This document shows positions 21,061 to 40,718 of a stretch of 48,555 bases of DNA, one piece after another. The notes under the pieces were generated by a model that was not told the DNA's origin, made no database searches, and saw nothing but the letters and a program-made list of their open reading frames with translations. The translations under genes were made by a program, and so were the position numbers. Every line of letters starts with the position of its first letter. Positions within the stretch are counted from its first letter, which is position 1. Source of the DNA: a virus; IMG/VR virus record IMGVR_UViG_3300005663_000068, positions 1 through 48,555 of that record. One strand, written 5' to 3'.

Positions 21061-21513
21061 CTATTCTGTAGGCTCTGACGGAGCCTCTACCCCATTGGGG
21101 TGGGTGGTGATTCTGGGGTCTACGATCTGTGTTAGTTCTAGAGTTATGCCAGCATTAGGGCCAGTAGTCCAATCTAGTGTGAGAACGGCTTTCGTCATAC
21201 TCTTAGGTTCGACACCACTTATACGCAACAGCTTACCGTCTATCTCAAGCCATCCACACTTAACGTGCAGCTCTCTGGGCTCGTATGTTGTAGTCTTGGT
21301 TTGTGGTTCTGCTACAATGTCCGAGGGCAGTGGTCTACTATTCTTGCGCCTACAACTCTCTTGAAGCTCTTCTTCGGCATCTAGGCCATATCGCCAGTGA
21401 ACTACTCCTGGGGTATTCACTAACAATTCAGAACCTTCTGTAAACTTCGACCTGTCTACTATAGCTACGCAGTCAGGCCCTCGGATTACGTAATACCTTA
21501 ATAGTGCTTTCAT
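21061..21513 (-). CDS. Hypothetical protein (150 aa)
   Basis: Not recognised. Starts inside the 3' end of the methyltransferase gene (41-bp overlap) with GAGAAG upstream. The C-terminal half is beta-rich (VKCGWLEIDGKLLRISGVEPK, then KAVLTLDW...) with an acidic tail. It may assist one of the two methyltransferases, judged only from position. Confidence 0.5.
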   Translation of the reverse strand: MKALLRYYVIRGPDCVAIVDRSKFTEGSELLVNTPGVVHWRYGLDAEEELQESCRRKNSRPLPSDIVAEPQTKTTTYEPRELHVKCGWLEIDGKLLRISGVEPKSMTKAVLTLDWTTGPNAGITLELTQIVDPRITTHPNGVEAPSEPTE

Positions 21514-22837
21514 CGTAAGCTTCTCCTACCCTATACTCGGCCCATGTAAAGTGTTCGGCGTCAATCTCGCAGCCTACGAAGCTACGATCAGCCATCGCTG
21601 CACCTATGCCTGTGGTCCCCGTGCCCATGAACGGGTCGAACACAACACCACCTGTTGGCGTTCGTGTCAACTTGCATAGATATTCCATAAGAGCTATAGG
21701 TTTAATCGTTGGATGGTTGTTACCAGGTCCGCGCTCCTTGCGTGAAGCTTTTGCGCAATAGAAGAAGCGGGCAGCGGAGCCGGAGTCAGAGTATGTGGAA
21801 CCTCCTAAGTAGCCACCTCCGCCGAAGGTTCCACCCTTATATTGTTGTCCTCTGTAGTCATCTTCACCGTAATTTTTTTTCCAATAGTTACCTGCTTCTG
21901 GAAACTCTCTAACCACCTCTTCCTTCTCAAGATTCGGCAACAGCTCAAAGTACTTCTGCAAATGTTCTGGTAACTTGTTATACTGTTGCTCATCAAGTTG
22001 CCAATCAAAGCACCCTAACTCTTTAAGCTCTAGCCCTATGTCTGTAGGTACTGCTTCGCTAAGTCCGTATCTGTCTTCTGGATAAGTTAGGATGACGTTA
22101 GTGGGCCAGCGGCCGGTCTTACTTTCACGCTGAATACAGCCGGTATTGTGTCCAGACATAGCAGCATTATCAGAAAGATATGTACCATCTGATTTAGTAA
22201 CTTGCATAGAATCTGTCCCTACCCTCGCCCCATCAATCCACAACCCACCTACACCCCACTTAACAGCGTTCTGCGCAAACGTCAAGCCCTTCTCAAGAGG
22301 TTTCATTGCAAGGGTTATGTACTCGCAAGCAGGTTTAAGAGCGGTCCCGTAGCCGTTCCATTGCTTGGCAAGGTCGGTAGACTCTCCCTCTCTTGTTAAT
22401 TGGTTCTCTGTCTTGTGGTAACCTCCTTTACCTTCAGCGTTCATAAAACCTACACCACTTGCAGGTTTTGCTGAGAACTCTACCCCAGCCTCTTTATCAA
22501 TACCCCTAGAAATATCGTGCGATTTAGGAAAACCTGATCCATAAATCCATAGAATCTTATCACGAATTTCCCAGCCTGCATCCTCGATCGCAGTTGTCAG
22601 TCTATGTTCTGTGCGCGTACCTCCGAATGCCAGTAGCATAGCGCCGGGCTTAGCAATGCGCAAGAAGCTCCGCCAGAAGTCAACACCCGGCACCCCATGA
22701 TCCCAGTCTTTGCCCATGAACTTTAGGCCATAGGGTGGATCACAGATGATAGTGTCAATACTGTTTGCGAGAAGGTCTACGCAAGTCGTGCGGCAGTCTT
22801 CCATGTGTAGCTTATAATTACGTTGCTCGTAGTTCAT
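21473..22837 (-). CDS. DNA methyltransferase (N4-cytosine or N6-adenine, beta-type motif order)
   Basis: Protein of 454 aa. Catalytic motif IV DPPYGLKFMG lies near residue 33, and the SAM motif FDPFMGTGTTGIGA with the acidic VGCEID lies near residue 410, giving the beta-class order. The long middle region (ASGVGFMNAEG...KPACEYITLAMKPL) is like phage-encoded site-specific methyltransferases, with a Gly/Tyr-rich loop near 330. No restriction enzyme is present, so it likely protects the phage DNA. Confidence 0.85.
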   Translation of the reverse strand: MNYEQRNYKLHMEDCRTTCVDLLANSIDTIICDPPYGLKFMGKDWDHGVPGVDFWRSFLRIAKPGAMLLAFGGTRTEHRLTTAIEDAGWEIRDKILWIYGSGFPKSHDISRGIDKEAGVEFSAKPASGVGFMNAEGKGGYHKTENQLTREGESTDLAKQWNGYGTALKPACEYITLAMKPLEKGLTFAQNAVKWGVGGLWIDGARVGTDSMQVTKSDGTYLSDNAAMSGHNTGCIQRESKTGRWPTNVILTYPEDRYGLSEAVPTDIGLELKELGCFDWQLDEQQYNKLPEHLQKYFELLPNLEKEEVVREFPEAGNYWKKNYGEDDYRGQQYKGGTFGGGGYLGGSTYSDSGSAARFFYCAKASRKERGPGNNHPTIKPIALMEYLCKLTRTPTGGVVFDPFMGTGTTGIGAAMADRSFVGCEIDAEHFTWAEYRVGEAYDESTIKVLRNPRA

Positions 22838-26627: not shown

Positions 26628-27497
26628 TCACCTCCTTTCACACTTTATTTCGGCATGTTTCCGTAACAACATCTTCGAGAGTCTCTTATCAGCTTTCTGC
26701 TTAGGCGCATGATAATCAAGAAGCTTCTGGTCTTGTCCTAGCAGACAGTCCGTTGCCCGCTTGTCATCGCGCCAACGCACGAATGCTGGGTGTCGTAGCC
26801 TGCCCTTGGTGCCGACACATTGATAGCGCACCTCTACCACCCTGCCGAGGTACTTGTCATTGTCAAGAGACACTTCGGCCCGTGTCAGGTCGTCCATACC
26901 AGAGACAAGGGCAATCTCTCGCCCCGCAACTGATACCTTGATAGCGCCGACTAGACCTAGATACTTACCCTTACCGTCAGTGTAGCCTGTTATCACACAG
27001 TCGATAGTGTAAACAGGCTTCCACTTGTACGGCTCGGATAGGTTGCTGTTTTTGAAGACGTAACCTTCTACATCCTCGGGGAGGGGTACAGCATTCCCAA
27101 CAAATTGTTGGGGAGTTACTCCTGCCATTCGTACAAATGGTATAAACCTTAACCCCCAACCCTCACATAAGCTTTCAAGGATTTCTAGAGGACAACCCTT
27201 GCGTTCCGTAGGAACCTGAAACATCTCAAACCAAAGCGCCTCCCGATTCTTGATAGCTGTCTTAACGTAGCTTGCCGGATGGCCGGGCATCCATAGTTCA
27301 CCTATCAGCGTAGTACCCGCGGGCACGTTGCGCACTACGTTCTGATACCAGCCTAGATACTTGAGCTGGTCTGTTAAGTCCGTGCGTATGCTTGAGTAAC
27401 AACGGACACGGCCAGCGTCGTTCTTGACCACCTCCAGGTAGTTACCATCGCGCTTAATCTGCGCGTAGACGGTCTGCTCACCCTTCCAGGTCTTCAT
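26628..27497 (-). CDS. ATP-dependent DNA ligase
   Basis: Protein of 289 aa. Nucleotidyl-transfer motif I is KRDG (Lys about 15). Motif III is LIGELWMPG, motif IV VEGYVFKN, and motif V YKWKPVYTIDCVITG. An OB-fold domain follows with GRVVEVRYQCVGTKGRLRHPAF containing motif VI-like RHPxFxRWRDDK. Length fits minimal phage/T7-type ligases. It seals nicks during replication. The first ten residues before KRDG are short, as in minimal enzymes. Confidence 0.88.
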   Translation of the reverse strand: MKTWKGEQTVYAQIKRDGNYLEVVKNDAGRVRCYSSIRTDLTDQLKYLGWYQNVVRNVPAGTTLIGELWMPGHPASYVKTAIKNREALWFEMFQVPTERKGCPLEILESLCEGWGLRFIPFVRMAGVTPQQFVGNAVPLPEDVEGYVFKNSNLSEPYKWKPVYTIDCVITGYTDGKGKYLGLVGAIKVSVAGREIALVSGMDDLTRAEVSLDNDKYLGRVVEVRYQCVGTKGRLRHPAFVRWRDDKRATDCLLGQDQKLLDYHAPKQKADKRLSKMLLRKHAEIKCERR

Positions 27498-28138: not shown

Positions 28139-28143
28139 TGTGC

Positions 28144-28683
28144 CTAATTGCCCGCGATGGCAAGCCTACCGGCTTCTCGAACAGCCTCAACGTCTACACC
28201 AGTTGCTTCCAAGTCCGCAGCCAGCTCCTCAATCTTGGCTTGCATTTGTATGAACTTCTTCATCTTGGCGCGGTCCTTAACCGATCCAAGCTTACGGAGT
28301 TGCGCCGCCTCAAGACGGAGTGCCTTGGCCTTCTGCTCATAGCTATCGGCTTTCCATTCTAACAGCAAGCTCTCGTCCGTAAAGTCTGTTGGCTTAATGG
28401 GCCGATGCACTTTCGGATCGTAGCCCCGGAGTTGCTCAAGACTTTCAATCTTCTTGCCACCTACTAAGGCAGGGAAGATGTCTTTCTTTTCCAGGTTCAT
28501 CCATCGGTCAAACGCCGCCTCATTCTCAAAGTCGCTTACCTTTAGTGGCAAGTGAATCTTCGCGTCGTACGCAGCAAGCAAGCTCATGCGCTTAACTTGT
28601 CGCGGTGTACCATCATCGTTTTTCAACGCGGGGAACATGACCAGTTCAACAGGTTCGGCAACAGCAGTGTTCTCATCTGTCAT
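28144..28683 (-). CDS. Duplicated-domain protein in its own transcription unit
   Basis: The ATG at 28683 follows GGAGGT. About 179 aa with two copies of a short motif: YDAKIHLPLKVSDFENEAAFDRW and YDPKVHRPIKPTDFTDESLLLEW. A C-terminal coiled coil follows (KALRLEAAQLRKL, MQAKIEELAADLEAT). Flanked by a consensus promoter and a terminator, it looks like a moron gene. It could be an interaction scaffold; function unknown. Confidence 0.65.
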   Translation of the reverse strand: MTDENTAVAEPVELVMFPALKNDDGTPRQVKRMSLLAAYDAKIHLPLKVSDFENEAAFDRWMNLEKKDIFPALVGGKKIESLEQLRGYDPKVHRPIKPTDFTDESLLLEWKADSYEQKAKALRLEAAQLRKLGSVKDRAKMKKFIQMQAKIEELAADLEATGVDVEAVREAGRLAIAGN

Positions 28684-28735
28684 AGCAAATACCTCCAAAG
28701 GAAAGGGAAAAAGATTCTCCGATTGTCAAAACGTG

Positions 28736-28764
28736 ATTATACCAGATTCAGAAACTCTTGTCAA
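28736..28764 (-). promoter_or_regulatory. Consensus sigma-70 promoter P1
   Basis: TTGACA, 17 bases, TATAAT on the minus strand, a perfect consensus. The -10 lies 53 bases before the ATG of the 28144-28683 gene. The -35 overlaps the last codons of the upstream 65-aa gene. Confidence 0.9.
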
Positions 28765-28945
28765 GGGGCCTTGAACGGATTTCTCCGAATGCTAGGACAA
28801 TATACCCCATGCCCCAGGCCCGCTCAAGAGCCGTCTTGCGGGCCGTCAGCTCGTCCCGAGCGGTGACGCCCGTACGAATCAATAGACCAGGTTGCTCCGG
28901 CTTATCGGCCGCCCTGACGATCAAGACTAGGTGATAGCGGTTCAT
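28748..28945 (-). CDS. Small hypothetical protein (65 aa)
   Basis: Begins MNRYHLVLIVRAADKPEQPG, then a helix ARDELTARKTALERAWGMGY and a strand IVLAFGEIRS. The composition looks coding, but the ribosome site is weak. Its last codons contain promoter P1. Third gene of the unit started by P2. Function unknown. Confidence 0.5.
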   Translation of the reverse strand: MNRYHLVLIVRAADKPEQPGLLIRTGVTARDELTARKTALERAWGMGYIVLAFGEIRSRPLDKSF

Positions 28946-28973
28946 CAGCCTGTACTTCTAAATTACCGTAGTT

Positions 28974-29150
28974 CTATCCCATCCAATTACGGCCCGTAGA
29001 ATCGTCTCTATTGGGCCTTGGTTGCGTTGTTGGCTCTACCCGCTTGACTATAGGCATAGGTGTCAGGTGCCCCTGTACGTCATGCCAGAGGCACCTGCCG
29101 CCGTATACGGCTAGTGTGAGGAGTGCTAGGGTGAGGATTAAGTATATCAT
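28974..29150 (-). CDS. Small membrane-anchored protein (58 aa)
   Basis: Start overlaps the previous stop (ATGA at 29150-29147). MIYLILTLALLTLAVYGGRC is a membrane or signal segment. The tail is Pro/Arg-rich (HLTPMPIVKRVEPTTQPRPN) and ends NWMG. It may span the envelope in part. Function unknown. Confidence 0.55.
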   Translation of the reverse strand: MIYLILTLALLTLAVYGGRCLWHDVQGHLTPMPIVKRVEPTTQPRPNRDDSTGRNWMG

Positions 29151-29521
29151 CGGAATTTGTCCGTTGCAAATTCGGCCAATTCCCTAGACTTATCCCGAAA
29201 ATAGACAGCGTAGACTCCTGGGGAACAGATACTTCGGCGTATATGATCCATAAACCAGCCCGAAGGGCGGCGAACTAGCACGAAAAATGTACTCTCTGGA
29301 GTACCTCTATATGCGCCGGGAAAGCTCTGCGCGTGGGTATCAACAAGGATTTCTAGCCCCAGCCAATCCTTCTTGTAGAGAAGTTTCGACAACTTCTTTT
29401 CGATTTCTTCTACCGCGTCAAACACGTCGGCTCGACAAATCGTGCGGACGCGAGCCTGACTCTGTGCCTTGTCGATGGCTTGCGTAATCTTGTCGGCGTT
29501 CTTTTTGGCGACTCGGATCAT
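29147..29521 (-). CDS. Hypothetical protein with own promoter (124 aa)
   Basis: The ATG at 29521 follows AAGGAGACAAG and promoter P2. Basic helical N-terminus (VAKKNADKITQAIDKAQSQARVR), then beta-rich C-terminus (TFFVLVRRPSGWF, GVYAVYFRDK). Not recognised. Head of a three-gene unit. Confidence 0.6.
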   Translation of the reverse strand: MIRVAKKNADKITQAIDKAQSQARVRTICRADVFDAVEEIEKKLSKLLYKKDWLGLEILVDTHAQSFPGAYRGTPESTFFVLVRRPSGWFMDHIRRSICSPGVYAVYFRDKSRELAEFATDKFR

Positions 29522-29573
29522 CGTTCTTGTCTCCTTGTAATGTTTCCGTGGTTGTCGTTTCCTCACTACTCTA
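29522..29573 (-). repeat. Conserved 5' leader copy A
   Basis: The stretch between promoter P2 and its ATG contains AAACGACAACC followed by CGGAAACATTACAAGG, almost identical to the leader at 30165-30216. A shorter, related form lies at 30480-30528, and a weaker one at 29834-29880. The shared leader implies copied transcription units or common post-transcriptional control. Confidence 0.8.
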
Positions 29574-29602
29574 ATTATAGCAGGTAGCCAGCTAGTTGTC
29601 AA
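29574..29602 (-). promoter_or_regulatory. Consensus sigma-70 promoter P2
   Basis: TTGACA, 17 bases, TATAAT on the minus strand; perfect consensus. The -10 lies 53 bases before the ATG at 29521. Confidence 0.9.
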
Positions 29603-29637
29603 GGGCCTCCGGCTACTAATTCCGCTCACCCCGAATC

Positions 29638-29660
29638 CGCCGGGCTGATTCCCGGCGGGC
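29638..29660 (-). terminator. GC hairpin after the 53-aa gene
   Basis: Perfect CCGCCGGG/CCCGGCGG stem with a 6-base loop on the minus strand, about a dozen bases after the stop at 29672. No U-run follows. It separates the 53-aa gene from promoter P2. Confidence 0.6.
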
Positions 29661-29671
29661 CTCCTTTTCTC

Positions 29672-29833
29672 TTACTTGTTGAAGTTGAACCGTTTTCGTC
29701 CGAGCGGTCGTGTTCGGCCGTGCGGGTCTTTCTTCGGTGTGCGGGTGAGTTTCTCGCCCCAGAGGACATGATCCCATTCGGCTTTGGTCAATTTCCGGTC
29801 GGCTTTCAGAAGTCTTTCTTTTGTCGTGGTCAT
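29672..29833 (-). CDS. Small basic protein in its own unit (53 aa)
   Basis: ATG at 29833 with GGAGACAGAACA upstream, 48 bases after the -10 of promoter P3. Reads MTTTKERLLKADRKLTKAEW, then a basic tail (TPKKDPHGRTRPLGRKRFNF). High Lys/Arg suggests nucleic-acid binding. Followed by a GC hairpin. Function unknown. Confidence 0.65.
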   Translation of the reverse strand: MTTTKERLLKADRKLTKAEWDHVLWGEKLTRTPKKDPHGRTRPLGRKRFNFNK

Positions 29834-29880
29834 TGTTCTGTCTCCGTTAGGTGTTGCGGTTGTCGTTGCCTTACACCCTT

Positions 29881-29909
29881 ATTATACTCTTCTATTCGGT
29901 CGGCGTCAA
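29881..29909 (-). promoter_or_regulatory. Near-consensus sigma-70 promoter P3
   Basis: TTGACG, 17 bases, TATAAT on the minus strand, driving the 53-aa gene. The region just upstream (to about 29938) is nearly identical to that of P5. Confidence 0.9.
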
Positions 29910-29938
29910 GGGCATCTGGCCTTAATTCCGTTCGGATT
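29904..29938 (-). repeat. Upstream promoter repeat, copy 1
   Basis: About 35 bases around and upstream of the -35 of P3 (including CATCTGGCC TTAATTCCGTT on the plus strand) recur at 30552-30586 with two differences. This shows that promoter units were copied along with their upstream DNA. Confidence 0.8.
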
Positions 29939-29964
29939 GTGAAAATAGTTTTCGGCCCATCAGT

Positions 29965-29984
29965 CTACGCTCTGGGGAGCGTAG
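29965..29984 (-). terminator. Perfect hairpin after the 56-aa gene
   Basis: CTACGCTC-CCCA-GAGCGTAG, an 8-bp perfect stem with a 4-base loop, nine bases after the stop at 29994. A short T-rich stretch (CTATTTTC) appears 20 bases later. It closes the P4 unit. Confidence 0.6.
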
Positions 29985-29993
29985 TGCGACGGG

Positions 29994-30164
29994 TCACCAA
30001 ACTTTGTCCCATGATCCGCGTTGCAAGACGGTTCCGAATTCATTACAGATGGTTCCATCTGCCTTCTTGCAGAACTTAAGGGCTGCTGTCAACGTGTTGA
30101 AAGTATAGATCATGCTTCCCCAGACACTAACTTGGACGGTAAAGAGTGGATTGAATTGGTACAT
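29994..30164 (-). CDS. Small protein in its own unit (56 aa)
   Basis: The ATG at 30164 follows AAGGGAGACAAG and promoter P4. MYQFNPLFTVQVSVWGSMIY, then TLTAALKFCKKADG suggest a small beta-alpha fold. A hairpin follows. Not recognised. The 27 codons upstream in frame fall in the promoter leader and are not coding. Confidence 0.65.
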   Translation of the reverse strand: MYQFNPLFTVQVSVWGSMIYTFNTLTAALKFCKKADGTICNEFGTVLQRGSWDKVW

Positions 30165-30216
30165 TGCTTGTCTCCCTTGTAATGTTTCCGCGGTTGTCGT
30201 TTCCCCACTACTCTCA
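30165..30216 (-). repeat. Conserved 5' leader copy B
   Basis: Leader between P4 and its ATG, nearly identical to the leader at 29522-29573 (same length from -10 to ATG, 53 bases). Confidence 0.8.
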
Positions 30217-30245
30217 ATTATAGCAGGTGACCGATTAGGTGTCAA
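30217..30245 (-). promoter_or_regulatory. Consensus sigma-70 promoter P4
   Basis: TTGACA, 17 bases, TATAAT on the minus strand; perfect consensus. It begins four bases after the stop of the 76-aa gene. Confidence 0.9.
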
Positions 30246-30248
30246 GGA

Positions 30249-30479
30249 CTAGATCGGCATATTCTCGCCATGATGGAACAGGTAATGTGCCGCCTTTTCC
30301 GTGAGGTTAAAGATTTTGCCTGACTGGTAGATGTATCCTTGAGCTATCAAACTATGGATTGTCGAGAAGCTACCCCGTCCGAAGTCCCCACAACAATGCT
30401 TTCGGTTTAGTCGCCGCTCTTGCGACTTAGAAAGTGTCCGTTTCGGTGCGGTCTCGAATTGCTCAAAGGTCATTTGCAT
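30249..30479 (-). CDS. Winged-helix-like small protein (76 aa)
   Basis: ATG at 30479 with GGAGACAGGGCA upstream, after promoter P5. The sequence (RTLSKSQERRLNRKH, then STIHSLIAQGYIYQSGKIFNLTEKAAHYLFHHG) fits a small winged-helix: helix, recognition-like helix, and a wing with GKIFNLTEKA. It could be a regulator of the promoter array. Inference from fold pattern only. Confidence 0.6.
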   Translation of the reverse strand: MQMTFEQFETAPKRTLSKSQERRLNRKHCCGDFGRGSFSTIHSLIAQGYIYQSGKIFNLTEKAAHYLFHHGENMPI

Positions 30480-30528
30480 TGCCCTGTCTCCTTGTAATGT
30501 TCCGTGGTTCCCATTGCCTTACCCTCTT

Positions 30529-30557
30529 ATTATACACCTCTATTCGTCATCCGTCAA
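30529..30557 (-). promoter_or_regulatory. Near-consensus sigma-70 promoter P5
   Basis: TTGACG, 17 bases, TATAAT on the minus strand. The -10 lies 50 bases before the ATG at 30479. First promoter of the array after the polymerase gene. Confidence 0.9.
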
Positions 30558-30586
30558 GGACATCTGGCCTTAATTCCGTTTGGATT
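30552..30586 (-). repeat. Upstream promoter repeat, copy 2
   Basis: Matches 29904-29938 with two differences. See copy 1. Confidence 0.8.
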
Positions 30587-30630
30587 CCTAAGATAGTTTC
30601 AATCGCTCTGCTGCCCTCTGTAGGGCCTTC

Positions 30631-30682
30631 GGGCCATAGCCCTATAATAAGCCACGTCGTGCCGACTACGTCCCTATGGCCC
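30631..30682 (-). terminator. Long-loop hairpin at the polymerase stop codon
   Basis: GGGCCATAG (ending in the polymerase TAG stop) pairs with CTATGGCCC 34 bases on. An inner CGTAGTCGGCACGACG segment can fold too, and GGCC-CGAA-GGCC follows. No U-run. It may protect the 3' end or reduce read-through into the P5 unit. Confidence 0.5.
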
Positions 30683-32638
30683 TCTAAGGGGCCTTGTGGT
30701 CCGCCAGCGCTCGAAATCAACCACATCCTCAAGGCCATAATCTATGTTCTTAGCCGCCAGCCCAGCCCCTTTCCAGTTCTTATCAGAGTATCCTGCACTA
30801 CATCTAATGGGGACACGTAGCTTGATGCGAGGATTCTCTAATAAATTGAGGATTGTAGGAATTAAATGCTTATCCTCTAGCAATTTGGTCGGCAGGCACA
30901 TTACTACGTCATCGTGAACCAGAGCGACAATGTATATAGGTGTTCCCTGTAGCTCAGCATGTAGCGCAACTACACGTTCCTTCATAAGATCTGCTGCGGT
31001 ACTTTGGCATAAAGTGTTAAATGCAATATGAGCCACCTTTCTAGGCAAATGGCGATGCCGACCGTATAGATTCCAGACGTAGCCCCTCTTACGTAAGGCA
31101 CTAGCTGCACTATTAGAGGTACGCTTCAGGTTCGGAAGCGTTTCGTGGTAGGTTTTGTATACATCTTCGGCACGTTGTTTGCAGAGCAGGTCAAACATAG
31201 GGGCTACTTCGGACTCATTTAGTAGCATCCCGTCAACCTCTGCCTGTATCTTCCCAACTACATCGGCATTAGCTGCTAGCCTCTCCGTCGCCTTCTTCTT
31301 ACCCATCCCGAAGGCCATGCTGAGGTTCAAAGTCTTGCCGGGACCTCTTGTTATGCCTACCATTTCTGCAACCCACGCATGAAAGTCCGTATTTGGATTC
31401 TCGTTATATGCTCTTATGCAAGTCTCATCGTTTATGTAGTGAACAATTATTCGGAATTCAATTTGTGAGTAGTCACAACTTAGGAAAGAGTACCCCTCGG
31501 GTGGTAAGATAAGTTCCTTAGCTGTCTTGTTTAGTTGCTGAAAGTTAGGCTCTTTACCTGACATTCTACCTGTTCGTACCACCTGATTATAGGTACCATG
31601 TAGAATGCAATCGTTATGCAACTCTTGATAAGGTCCGAGAAATAGGCTATTCAGTGTGCTAAGACTTCTGTACTCCTGAATTAAAGGTACCACCCCCTTC
31701 GGTGCGTGCGGATGGTGCGCATACTGCACTAACGCAGCCTTGTCGAATGAGGGGTTATGTGGCTTGGTTCCCGTCTTGTCATCCTCATTGGTCCAAGATA
31801 GTACAGGCAGCCCGTACGTACCACAGAGAACTTCGAAGCAATCTGTAGGACTGACAGGATTGAAGCTCCTACCTACTATCTCAGTAAGCTCCACGTCAAT
31901 TTGCAGTAACCTATTAAGAGTTTGGTATTCCTTGATTTTTAACTGCGTAGGATTTATACGCATACCCTTCTGTTCTATGTCAAACAGTACACGGGTGACC
32001 TGTATCTCAGTTTTGACAACCTCTTGACACTGTTCGGGTATACGGGATAGGATGTACTTGTAAAGTCTGCGATTAGTTATCACATCTTGGCAACCATACT
32101 CACCCATCAAGTCAGGAGGCACCACACCCCAGTCCTTATTCATACGTTCTAAGAAGTGCTCGAAGACTTTCTTAAGACGTGATATGTCTTCGTCAAGCCA
32201 TGCTTTGCTAAGTGCATCCAACCCGTAACCACCTCGCATGATTCTATCGCTGTCTACGATCTTGGCTAAGACGATTGTGTCTACAAGGTCACAGTGAAGG
32301 TCTCCGCCTATACAGTTCTCAAAAACATGTGCATCATATTTTACATGATGATTTACCCAGTTCTCACAAGTCCCTATAATCCATCGCAGCCAAGGGTATA
32401 CAGCATCCTTTGGCAGATTCTCCTTCCTATGCCCAACAGGTACATACCACGCTCCTGGTATCTCATCTGCTGTAATGCAGATGCCTAGTACATCGCAGCT
32501 ATGCCACGGGTTAAGGGAGTCTAGCTTAGGATTGCCAGAAGTAGTCTCGAAGTCTAAGAAAAGATGTTCCGAGTCTAGCAAGTCTGGCAACTCGTCTATA
32601 TGCTGAACTAACCGTCCGCCGTTTCCATATTCAAGCAT
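30674..32638 (-). CDS. Family A DNA polymerase with 3'-5' exonuclease domain
   Basis: Protein of 654 aa. The proofreading domain begins with LFLDFETTSG (ExoI, about 26-35) and has YDAHVFEN (ExoII) and YGCQDVITNRRLY (ExoIII). Polymerase motif A is CDYSQIEFRI (about 388-397). The O-helix is RGPGKTLNLSMAFG (about 431-444). Motif C is VHDDVV (about 574-579), with Asp in place of the usual Glu. The residue equivalent to E. coli Phe762 is Leu and that of Tyr766 is Phe. It is the replicative polymerase of the phage. Confidence 0.92.
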   Translation of the reverse strand: MLEYGNGGRLVQHIDELPDLLDSEHLFLDFETTSGNPKLDSLNPWHSCDVLGICITADEIPGAWYVPVGHRKENLPKDAVYPWLRWIIGTCENWVNHHVKYDAHVFENCIGGDLHCDLVDTIVLAKIVDSDRIMRGGYGLDALSKAWLDEDISRLKKVFEHFLERMNKDWGVVPPDLMGEYGCQDVITNRRLYKYILSRIPEQCQEVVKTEIQVTRVLFDIEQKGMRINPTQLKIKEYQTLNRLLQIDVELTEIVGRSFNPVSPTDCFEVLCGTYGLPVLSWTNEDDKTGTKPHNPSFDKAALVQYAHHPHAPKGVVPLIQEYRSLSTLNSLFLGPYQELHNDCILHGTYNQVVRTGRMSGKEPNFQQLNKTAKELILPPEGYSFLSCDYSQIEFRIIVHYINDETCIRAYNENPNTDFHAWVAEMVGITRGPGKTLNLSMAFGMGKKKATERLAANADVVGKIQAEVDGMLLNESEVAPMFDLLCKQRAEDVYKTYHETLPNLKRTSNSAASALRKRGYVWNLYGRHRHLPRKVAHIAFNTLCQSTAADLMKERVVALHAELQGTPIYIVALVHDDVVMCLPTKLLEDKHLIPTILNLLENPRIKLRVPIRCSAGYSDKNWKGAGLAAKNIDYGLEDVVDFERWRTTRPLRGP

Positions 32639-32841
32639 ACACCCAGCTCCTCATAAGTTACGTAGTACGCTTCGCCAACAACCTTCTCTAATGCTGGTGA
32701 CCAATCTCGTACCATCAACTCCCAATTTTCCGAGAAAGATGGCTTAATATGTTGCTGGCCTACTTCGCCCTCCTCACCGACTATCCTAACATAGCCTGTA
32801 GAGGATTGCTCAAACTCGTGAACCGTTCCGACTAACTCCAT
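32608..32841 (-). CDS. Hypothetical protein (77 aa)
   Basis: The ATG at 32841 follows AGGAG and overlaps the 3' end of the kinase-like gene. Beta-rich start (MELVGTVHEFEQSSTGYVRIVG) and acidic end. It overlaps the polymerase start by about 30 bp. Not recognised. Confidence 0.55.
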   Translation of the reverse strand: MELVGTVHEFEQSSTGYVRIVGEEGEVGQQHIKPSFSENWELMVRDWSPALEKVVGEAYYVTYEELGVCLNMETADG

Positions 32842-33340
32842 AATAAATCTCCTGTAAGAATGTGTCGCACTTGTCACGAAAGTCTATGTACTTCGATACA
32901 ATGTCTGCAATAGTTACATCATTGATATAAGGTGCCTTTTCCCAAGATTGGAAACCATAGTTCCAATCAAACCTGAGATCATTCCAGTGGTATTGACTAT
33001 GTACCTCATTAAATAATAAGCACCGCTCAAATTCTTCAGTGGATGAACTCCGGTCTCTAGCCAAATGTTTTTCAACAGTTATCAGCACTGTAAACGTCGG
33101 CACTAATCGCAAGTACCCATCAAGCGCTGCAAAGCTTTCGGGATACAATGGTGAGTCACCATTGATTACACCTATCCAATGGTACGTATCCCAAACGAAT
33201 CGAGGATGCGCCATAGAACAGTAGTCATTGAACGACATACCACGCTCTGGTGGCTTAGCTGGTACGTAGTGCAACAGGTCTGCGAGCTTATGTACTAAGG
33301 TAGTCTTACCAACTTTCGGTGGGCCTTCTACAATAATCAT
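32810..33340 (-). CDS. P-loop nucleotide kinase-like protein (dTMP kinase-like)
   Basis: Protein of 176 aa starting MIIVEGPPKVGKTTLVHKL, a Walker A within the first 14 residues as in thymidylate and deoxynucleoside kinases. A DTYHWIG segment and a LITVEKHLARDRS lid-like segment follow. With ThyX it would make dTTP precursors. The family is clear at the P-loop level; substrate is inferred. Confidence 0.75.
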   Translation of the reverse strand: MIIVEGPPKVGKTTLVHKLADLLHYVPAKPPERGMSFNDYCSMAHPRFVWDTYHWIGVINGDSPLYPESFAALDGYLRLVPTFTVLITVEKHLARDRSSSTEEFERCLLFNEVHSQYHWNDLRFDWNYGFQSWEKAPYINDVTIADIVSKYIDFRDKCDTFLQEIYYGVSRNGSRV

Positions 33341-38592: not shown

Positions 38593-40543
38593 TGCTTAGT
38601 ATCCTCGCTAAGATTTGTTTCACGTCTGCAATCTCATACGCTGCTATACGCTTTTGCATGACCCGCATCCTGATTTCTTCGTCGATAGTTTCAGGCACGC
38701 ATAGATCAGTCACGCGAATCTGAACACGGGTACCTCGCCTATGCGGTCGGGATTCGCTCTGACTACGGGCTGTTGATGACCAGTTCTGCGAGTAGTATAT
38801 TTCGTGATTACAGTTTGTGATTTGTATGGGTGGATTATTCCAGTGGTCATAACCTAGCAGGTTCAAACCTGTCCCGCCCGCTGCCGGGTTAGCAACTAGG
38901 ACAGGACACTTAGGGTCCTCGTTAAACCTTCGTTCCGCTTCTTTACGTGCGTTGTCAGAAGTCTTGCCATAGAACGTCACACAATCAATACCCTCTAGCT
39001 TCAACCTTGCTGCAATGCTCTTTATGTCTTGCACCCAACACGCCCATATCAGAGTCTTATCTGTTGGTAACTTGCCCTCAGGGTTCTTCAACTTATCATA
39101 GGGCGCAAGTAATTCGACGATACCTTCAAGCTTAGGGTTAGGGTCTATTCTATCAATCTCTCCAGGGAGAACCTTCTCCCCATCCTCTGAAAGTTCCCCG
39201 TCCCACTTGATAAAGCCCGAGGTTATCTGCGCAAGTCGTAGCAACTTCGTTAAGATGTTATTAGCTACTAGCTGCCTATTCTTCGTTCCCTGCAAATCTT
39301 GCTCAATCTCTATGGCAAGATGTTTGCGCAAGTCATCGTAGTAACCTTGTTGTACAGGAGTCATCTCGACTTCGTGAACATCATACACCATAGCAGGTAG
39401 ATCCGGCAGTGCCTCTTTCTTATGAATTATGAAAGAGATTCTTGCTAGTCGTTCTTTGATGAAGGGTAAATTCTGGAAGTCTACCAATGCCTTATGGCCG
39501 GACTCCGAAACGCGATAGACTCCGTAGAATTTTCGGAACGCTTCAAACGTAGAGAATCCCGAGAGTCCCTTACCAAGGAATTCTAATTGCATGTATACGT
39601 CAAGCATACTATTAGTAATCGGTGTGCCCGTCAATACCATGCGAGCCTTCGCCTTATCCCGCAGATAGAGAGCGTATTTTGCGCGTCTAGTTCTTGGAGA
39701 CTTTATATAGTGTGACTCATCGAGTACGGCCAAATTCCAATTGATTGCCTTGAGCACATCCCAAGTACCACTGACCGCTTCATAAGAGCACACGATGACA
39801 GAGAACCTATCTCTATTACTAGAATCTAATGCATCGAGAACTAGCTTAATGCGTTCCAGCTTATCACCTCGCAGAACAGTCACCCTACCTTTGTGGGTTC
39901 CAAACTTATCGAACTCATTCTGCCAATTGATCCGTACGTTCTTAGGCGCTACAATAATGGCTCGATACATTTGAACATGCTGTATCGACTCATTGCAAAT
40001 ACGCGCAACAACAATTGGAGTCTTACCTGTACCCTGCTCCATGAAGAGTGCATAGCCCTCACTACGCATAGCACACTGTAGGCCAACTCTCTGGTATTTC
40101 GTAAGAGGGAATTCAGGATGCAAGATGTATTTGTTGTCTACTACCTCTTGCTTGTCGCGCCATCGTGCTATTAACTTCGCATTCTCCTCTTGCTGTTTGC
40201 AGGTCAATAAGATATAAGTTAGCATAGCCTGCGCGTCGTACTCTGCAACCCGTTGTTTCGACGGCCAGAGTTGGCTAATAAGAATAGCTGAGTAGTCCGT
40301 CGCCGCCACTTGCCACTGGTCAATTCCCTCTAGTCTCCTGCGCTCTGGGAACCTAAGAGGGAAGTCTCGTGTTGCTTGTGGACTCGCGTAGGTACGCGCA
40401 CCATTACCACGCCATGTATTAGGCTGCCACATCTTGAGAATGAAATAACGGTCGTCATCTGTTAGACTAATATCTAGCATATCAGCATCACGCAAACCTA
40501 ACGGACGGAGTGCGCGTTTACTGGCGGAGGTAATGGGTATCAT
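38585..40543 (-). CDS. SNF2-family DEAD/DEAH-like helicase
   Basis: The ATG at 40543 (MIPITSASKRAL) is preferred: AGGACAGCTCTAAAC precedes it, in the same arrangement as for the small gene upstream. The frame before it encodes an unlikely hydrophobic head that overlaps that gene. About 652 aa: Walker A MEQGTGKT (168-175), LVLDESHYIKSP-type motif II (DESH about 275), LTGTPITN motif III, a C-terminal helicase half with VANPAAGGTGLNL and the ESRPHRRGTRVQI Arg-finger motif. Likely remodels DNA at forks or during recombination. Confidence 0.88.
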   Translation of the reverse strand: MIPITSASKRALRPLGLRDADMLDISLTDDDRYFILKMWQPNTWRGNGARTYASPQATRDFPLRFPERRRLEGIDQWQVAATDYSAILISQLWPSKQRVAEYDAQAMLTYILLTCKQQEENAKLIARWRDKQEVVDNKYILHPEFPLTKYQRVGLQCAMRSEGYALFMEQGTGKTPIVVARICNESIQHVQMYRAIIVAPKNVRINWQNEFDKFGTHKGRVTVLRGDKLERIKLVLDALDSSNRDRFSVIVCSYEAVSGTWDVLKAINWNLAVLDESHYIKSPRTRRAKYALYLRDKAKARMVLTGTPITNSMLDVYMQLEFLGKGLSGFSTFEAFRKFYGVYRVSESGHKALVDFQNLPFIKERLARISFIIHKKEALPDLPAMVYDVHEVEMTPVQQGYYDDLRKHLAIEIEQDLQGTKNRQLVANNILTKLLRLAQITSGFIKWDGELSEDGEKVLPGEIDRIDPNPKLEGIVELLAPYDKLKNPEGKLPTDKTLIWACWVQDIKSIAARLKLEGIDCVTFYGKTSDNARKEAERRFNEDPKCPVLVANPAAGGTGLNLLGYDHWNNPPIQITNCNHEIYYSQNWSSTARSQSESRPHRRGTRVQIRVTDLCVPETIDEEIRMRVMQKRIAAYEIADVKQILARILSNV

Positions 40544-40556
40544 GTTTAGAGCTGTC

Positions 40557-40718
40557 CTATACCAAAGAAGAATTGCGAGAGTACACACAAGTATTGTAGC
40601 CGATGCGAGCCAACAGCTTGAGGCCGAGCATACCAGTACACCCTTGCGCAAAGGTAGTCTGTACCTCATTGCCATTGTAACAGATAATAATGTGCAGTAG
40701 CACGCGATGTGCAACCAT
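40557..40718 (-). CDS. Small hypothetical protein (53 aa)
   Basis: ATG at 40718, 51 bases after the -10 of promoter P6 and with AGGACAATCTAAAC upstream. Reads MVAHRVLLHIIICYNGNEVQ and ends LKLLARIGYNTCVYSRNSSLV. The composition looks coding, and the next ribosome site falls in its last codons. First gene of the replication operon. Function unknown. Confidence 0.6.
   Translation of the reverse strand: MVAHRVLLHIIICYNGNEVQTTFAQGCTGMLGLKLLARIGYNTCVYSRNSSLV

Follow-up and report, generated by a model that had tools for sequence, protein, structure and literature searches.

Small orphan genes behind consensus promoters between polA and ligase, and diverse apparent makers of gene 5′ ends at the same locus in related tailed phages

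Between its genes for DNA polymerase A (polA) and an ATP-dependent DNA ligase, the 48,555-base virus contig IMGVR_UViG_3300005663_000068 (an IMG/VR record; the whole contig is called the window below) carries an island of seven small genes, five of which have a promoter of their own. Nearly all genes of the window lie on the minus strand, in the order tail genes, a promoter (P6) with an SNF2 helicase gene, several small genes, primase-helicase, polA, the island, ligase, thyX, a DNA methyltransferase, terminase, portal and head genes. The upstream boundary of the island is polA (30674–32638, minus strand) and the downstream boundary is the ligase gene (26628–27497, minus strand). The five island promoters, P1 to P5, form an array that is real and strongly non-random.

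All five promoters lie on the minus strand and share the form TTGAC(A/G), 17 nucleotides (N17), TATAAT. P1 (28764–28736), P2 (29602–29574) and P4 (30245–30217) have TTGACA and match the consensus at 12/12 positions; P3 (29909–29881) and P5 (30557–30529) have TTGACG and match at 11/12. The −10 element is preceded by TG (an extended −10) in P1, P2 and P4, and likewise in P6. First-order Markov simulation of the entire window (300 runs) gave an expected 0.24 N17 sites with at least 11/12 matches and never more than 2; the window has 7, five of them packed within 1.9 kb. For 12/12 sites the figures are three observed and 0.003 expected. Sites of comparable strength are absent from the opposite strand of the island region. 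The combination of TTGACA and TATAAT at a spacing of 16–18 nucleotides, beyond chance, is that of sigma-70-type promoters. An original prediction, made from the letters of this DNA, had described the same five promoters, three of them perfect, and is upheld; its distance of 48–53 bases from −10 to ATG is right to within a base, the measured gap to an ATG with a Shine-Dalgarno (SD) site being 47–52 nucleotides. A further 11/12 promoter-like site (14618–14590), in a coding region upstream of the terminase gene, may be due to chance.

The island genes, all on the minus strand, are small and mostly orphans, without a known family above cut-off, in agreement with their earlier description as uncharacterised. 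P5 drives a gene for a 76-residue protein (30249–30479; SD site AAGGAG), P4 one for a 56-residue protein (29994–30164) and P3 one for a basic 53-residue protein (29672–29833); none of the three has a family or a homolog in the islands of relatives, and a search with the 76-residue protein gave one 11-residue match that is not convincing. The −35 element of P4 abuts the end of the 76-residue gene. The P2 unit comprises three genes, encoding a 124-residue orphan (29147–29521) with a weak, sub-cutoff Pfam match only and no relative among viral contigs, a 58-residue protein (28974–29150) whose gene overlaps the stop of the preceding one, and a 65-residue protein (28748–28945), whose 3′ end contains the −35 element of P1. 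Last comes i180 (28144–28683), encoding 179 residues, whose C-terminal helical hairpin is conserved at the same place in 28 relatives. Family search, structure prediction and a PDB fold search found no known relative of i180.

The array alternates between two kinds of cassette: type B, with P5 and P3, and type A, with P4 and P2. P1, the leader of which is unlike the others, is a third type. The P5 and P3 cassettes are identical at 92/120 positions and the P4 and P2 cassettes at 71/82, in each case far above shuffles; the genes behind the paired cassettes have no similarity at the DNA or protein level. Both repeats that had been noted earlier are confirmed. The near-identical leaders of P4 (30165–30216) and P2 (29522–29573), both on the minus strand, share 40 nucleotides at 95% identity (30175–30214 and 29533–29572), and the upstream blocks given as 29904–29938 and 30552–30586 are copies over a wider range, 94 nucleotides at 81% identity (29858–29951 and 30506–30599). 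Little structure is predicted in the leaders. A start-associated sequence (a 13-bp GGGATAGGAGCCC-like motif 3–7 bp before the start) does not occur in the window leaders. A conserved promoter and leader ahead of unrelated small genes, as found here, is one of the features expected of an early anti-defence island with a shared strong promoter.

The P3 and P5 repeats reach some 40 nucleotides upstream of the −35 element, which favours the possibility that the repeats are mainly regulatory sites, such as phage repressor operators or replication or packaging signals, with incidental promoter hexamers. This is very hard to credit. The hexamers and their spacing are the most conserved feature common to all six promoters, whereas at least three unrelated types can be distinguished among the flanks; orientation and spacing of the sites follow the start codons, and no palindromic operator was reported in the repeat analysis.

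Profile scans of IMG/VR yielded some 70 contigs, here called relatives, that share the replication module of the window (SNF2 helicase, primase-helicase, polA, ligase). With the window genes mapped onto them, the conserved order is SNF2, g107, g179, g266, primase-helicase, polA, a variable zone, i180 and ligase. In the polA–ligase zone, 286/364 open reading frames (ORFs) are without homologs in the other contigs. Given these conserved neighbours and the preponderance of ORFs without homologs, the gap is, as judged from sequence, an accessory zone with fast gene turnover. That the cargo might differ between phages had been raised at the outset, and it does: besides the contig-specific ORFs of the zone, i180 is the only island protein of the window with homologs in relatives (28/49 relatives, by ORF comparison). 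This lineage marker has diverged second copies in contigs L010 (21543–22830) and L009.

Promoters are also enriched in the islands of the lineage. When a gene-proximal promoter is defined as a site with at least 10/12 matches, 15–130 nucleotides before the start of an ORF with an SD site, the lineage islands have 31 in sense orientation (12 of them with at least 11/12) versus 1 antisense, with 1.3 expected from shuffles; 5 of the 31 are contributed by the window. The corresponding number for 396 kb of replication module is 4. Closer comparisons found little: megablast of the 27–37 kb region against phages gave no DNA-level relatives, and a scan with the single polA sequence gave none either. 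Among annotated records, Caudoviricetes sp. ctIqW946 (MW202657, Manatee Spring) comes nearest, with SNF2 helicase, primase-helicase and polA 38–44% identical. It differs from the window in its gene order around polA, in having the ligase upstream of the helicase, and in lacking a promoter array.

The original prediction had hairpins closing several of the units. Hairpins do lie after the polA, P4 and P3 genes, all of them without a U-run on the gene strand. After the P4 gene comes a stable two-step hairpin (29952–30000, minus strand) that has no U-tract (−29.9 kcal/mol for the folded stretch) and is the only one clearly more stable than shuffles (z −3.6). The one after the P3 gene (29636–29659, minus strand), scanned as a terminator, has an 8–9 bp GC stem and a T-run on the plus strand only. 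Classical terminators are absent after these units; because of the missing gene-strand U-tracts, the label 'terminator' is unsupported. An Rfam search of the window for structured RNAs and ribozymes returned none, nor is there a hammerhead core with three stems. A decayed hammerhead considered at about 29950–29965 (CTGATG...CGAAAAC, after the P4 gene) was dropped, as it does not form a core.

The lack of terminators bears on the proposal that the island is a 'stack of morons', in the strict sense of units acquired separately as promoter–gene–terminator elements and expressed on their own, also from a prophage. Gene-by-gene promoters, orphan genes and a slightly higher GC content are in line with it, as is the absence of the island genes, i180 excepted, from the same site in relatives. 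The units are modular genetically. The earlier hand count of GC is correct where rechecked (28141–28200), but the contrast is modest: 0.47–0.52 in the island versus 0.44–0.47 in polA. True morons would further be expected to end in intrinsic terminators of their own, and the hairpins have no gene-strand U-tract. The cassettes are copies of each other within one genome, the locus is fixed throughout the lineage, and i180 is conserved. Searches with two of the cargo proteins did not reveal the same promoter–gene units at unrelated sites of other phages. Comparison of about 30 window proteins, a part of the protein set, with PHROGs revealed no integrase, and within that limit the window gives no sign of lysogeny. 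The phrase fits in part, and a moron stack proper is improbable.

In the relatives, self-comparison of the islands brought out repeated elements ahead of genes that in many cases are something other than promoters. The most frequent alternative is the type II hammerhead ribozyme (Rfam RF02276), which matches in 18/50 records at E ≤0.01 (best 7.5e-14) and exceeds the gathering score in 7/50, with 0/14 among control genomes. In these matches the core is present, stems I and III are closed and stem II is open. A descriptor of core and stems found 52 hammerheads on the gene strand, 1 on the opposite strand and 0 in shuffled sequence. After removal of duplicate contigs, 36/39 lie within the polA–ligase zone, and 37/39 end 19–57 nucleotides before an ATG with an SD site. 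Small genes of the polA–ligase zone have tandem type II hammerheads in their leaders in L062 (5099–7219), L010 (19852–22019), L009 (13548–15254), L021 (17819–19372), L041 (17127–18014) and L073 (record G046, 31924–33223).

Other elements occupy the same kind of position. In L091 (13103–15322), four twister-P5 ribozymes (RF02684) lie in gene leaders of the zone, at 59–61 bits against a gathering score of 37.6 (E about 1e-10). In L034 (15471–18188), a helix resembling the T-arm and acceptor of a tRNA is repeated before most island genes, 30–45 nucleotides from them. These leaders contain no complete cloverleaf, only the T-arm and acceptor-like helix, which is a possible RNase P or RNase Z site; because the minihelix descriptor has background matches, including 5 on the reverse strand, only the repeated copies of L034 are counted. 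L031 (18026–20909) carries four copies of a structured leader element with 10 pairs changed on both sides, and L061 (13446–14915) three copies of another (GCCTAGG...GTGTCACTGGTTAA) with compensatory changes. Neither has an Rfam match, and neither was found outside its own contig.

On a polA tree, these 5′-end states are scattered, requiring 20 changes over all 54 rows and 9 among the 29 rows with an assigned state. L034, with the tRNA-like helix, and L041, with hammerheads, are sisters (a starred branch). The window falls in a group (support 80) with the hammerhead carriers L056 and L004 and with L016, which has promoters.

The ribozymes also help to judge a more ordinary explanation, namely that these are simply strong promoters of a phage dependent on host polymerase, boosting the downstream ligase, thyX and methyltransferase genes, with the small genes as incidental filler. 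All promoters do point into those genes, and no U-tract terminator stands in the way of read-through. However, the promoters sit 47–52 nucleotides before individual small genes and come with repeated leaders, and ribozymes at the same positions in relatives would not boost downstream transcription. This explanation is unlikely, if the most probable of the alternatives.

The reading preferred here, to which a probability of roughly two in three is given, is that the region is a cassette-built accessory (cargo) island at a fixed polA–ligase place in a large uncultivated tailed-phage lineage, that most of its genes have their own mRNA start, and that the cargo probably serves early host takeover or anti-defence. 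Promoters and the ribozymes of relatives are supported by the sequence comparisons; early timing and cargo function are what we infer from them. Of the 'early-gene takeover island' initially proposed, the very strong housekeeping-type promoters, far beyond chance, and the accessory island of small proteins stand.

Several points weigh against this reading. Use of sigma-70 is an assumption, and full-consensus promoters with an extended −10 can be slow in promoter escape. Two of the three genes in the P2 unit lack a promoter of their own, and five promoters per island is the extreme of the set rather than the rule. A search of relatives for the promoter–leader element had been suggested at the outset; an exact-pattern search of viral contigs found 0 matches to the cassette outside the window. 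Comparison with known families gave the island proteins no match above cut-off, an absence that for orphans does not exclude an anti-defence role. Contigs with at least two promoters and those with at least two hammerheads do not overlap (9 versus 12), which by our own estimate is not significant; the idea that promoters and hammerheads exclude or replace each other was dropped, the numbers being too small.

If the accessory-island reading is correct, small, fast-exchanged genes would be kept as modules, most of them headed by a cassette that supplies a new mRNA 5′ end together with a translation leader that is short and strong. The cassette of this phage would consist of a consensus housekeeping-sigma promoter, a little-structured leader of 47–52 nucleotides and an SD site, and would be read by the host RNA polymerase; the latter is the default assumption because no phage RNA polymerase was found among the large window proteins compared with PHROGs. 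Genes may have been swapped between cassettes by recombination, as is suggested by cassette sequence shared beside unrelated genes. In relatives, cleavage of a polycistronic transcript by a hammerhead or twister, or possibly at a tRNA-like helix, appears to serve the same end. A type II hammerhead cleaves between stem III and stem I. Stem I would then form a hairpin at the start of the downstream mRNA and stem III one at the end of the upstream mRNA, and gene-length mRNAs bounded by hairpins would result. The promoter array could achieve the same outcome by initiation, with the closing hairpins possibly acting as 3′ ends. The host polymerase would read the promoters early, and the cargo would most likely act early against the host or its defences. 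This last suggestion draws on an analogy with archaeal viruses, whose anti-defence genes are marked by conserved sequences of strong promoters ahead of early genes unrelated to each other (PMC11065993).

A broader proposal is that nearly every cargo gene at this locus has an mRNA 5′ end of its own and that the device making this end is exchangeable between relatives, be it a consensus promoter, a type II hammerhead, a twister-P5, a tRNA-like processing helix or one of at least two unclassed structured leaders (L031, L061). The case for and against it is evenly balanced. Were it true, it would imply selection for independent mRNA ends of modular early genes, whichever device supplies them, and the locus would be a place to look for new ribozymes and anti-defence genes.

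Taken alone, the promoter array is an unusually clean case of a known theme, strong promoters ahead of accessory phage genes; the interest lies in the comparison, with several apparent ways of making gene 5′ ends at a single locus. The archaeal early-promoter system is alike in placing a near-identical strong promoter before many small, unrelated, poorly conserved genes of one virus. It differs in that its promoter is of the BRE/TATA type and that timing and anti-defence were tested for some genes, whereas the window has promoters of a predicted bacterial sigma-70 type and a presumed function; ribozyme alternatives are not described for it in the text consulted (PMC11065993). Tandem phage hammerheads in prophage operons have been proposed to cut long phage transcripts into gene-length mRNAs (PMC3088659). 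Like those of the relatives, they are type II, tandem, and flank single phage genes. Unlike that case, the window has no hammerheads, those of its relatives lie at one fixed locus, and other members of the lineage use promoters, twister or other elements. The start-associated and extended start-associated sequences of Cluster K mycobacteriophages (PMC3203893) are also repeated leaders before many small unrelated non-structural genes, but they resemble a ribosome-binding site, a 13-mer with inverted repeats and a proposed role in translation, whereas the repeat in the window is a full promoter and leader. Predicted SigA promoters of Cluster O mycobacteriophages (PMC4351075) likewise place several strong housekeeping-sigma promoters in one long same-strand gene run; they head operons, whereas the window goes down to one gene per promoter, with copied leaders.

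The polA–ligase gap next to the i180 marker provides an address at which small genes that evolve fast can be found in some 70 uncultivated phage contigs, and zones of such genes are where host-takeover and anti-defence proteins are expected. At this locus promoters can also be compared, in a natural setting, with self-cleaving ribozymes in homologous positions; the comparison is relevant to the question of why tandem ribozymes lie between phage genes. The two structured leader families without an Rfam match (L031, L061) are candidate new processing elements.

Outside the island, P6 (40797–40769, minus strand; TTGACG-N17-TATAAT, 11/12) stands ahead of a 53-residue ORF and the SNF2 helicase gene. 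The original prediction gave it the same form as P1 to P5; the core is indeed shared, but the leader is its own. The first gene behind it is the 53-residue ORF (40718–40557), between P6 and the helicase, whose start is probably the ATG at 40543 and not the TTG at 40714 that begins the longest ORF. The position of P6 is conserved: 9/36 SNF2 genes (the window included) have a site with at least 11/12 matches no more than 300 nucleotides upstream, versus 1.2% of random windows. In L011 (4579–4629), L014 (610–660) and L015 (170–219), hammerheads lie upstream of the SNF2 helicase and not after polA, with an 11/12 or 12/12 promoter within about 2 kb, at or near the P6 position.

Two further observations concern the surroundings. 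A tRNA search of the window found none, and one relative has a tRNA-Leu(taa) gene just before polA (L050, 15336–15418). The DNA methyltransferase of the window (21473–22837) matches its family in two parts, residues 5–169 and about 356–447, which suggests that it carries an insert of some 190 residues.

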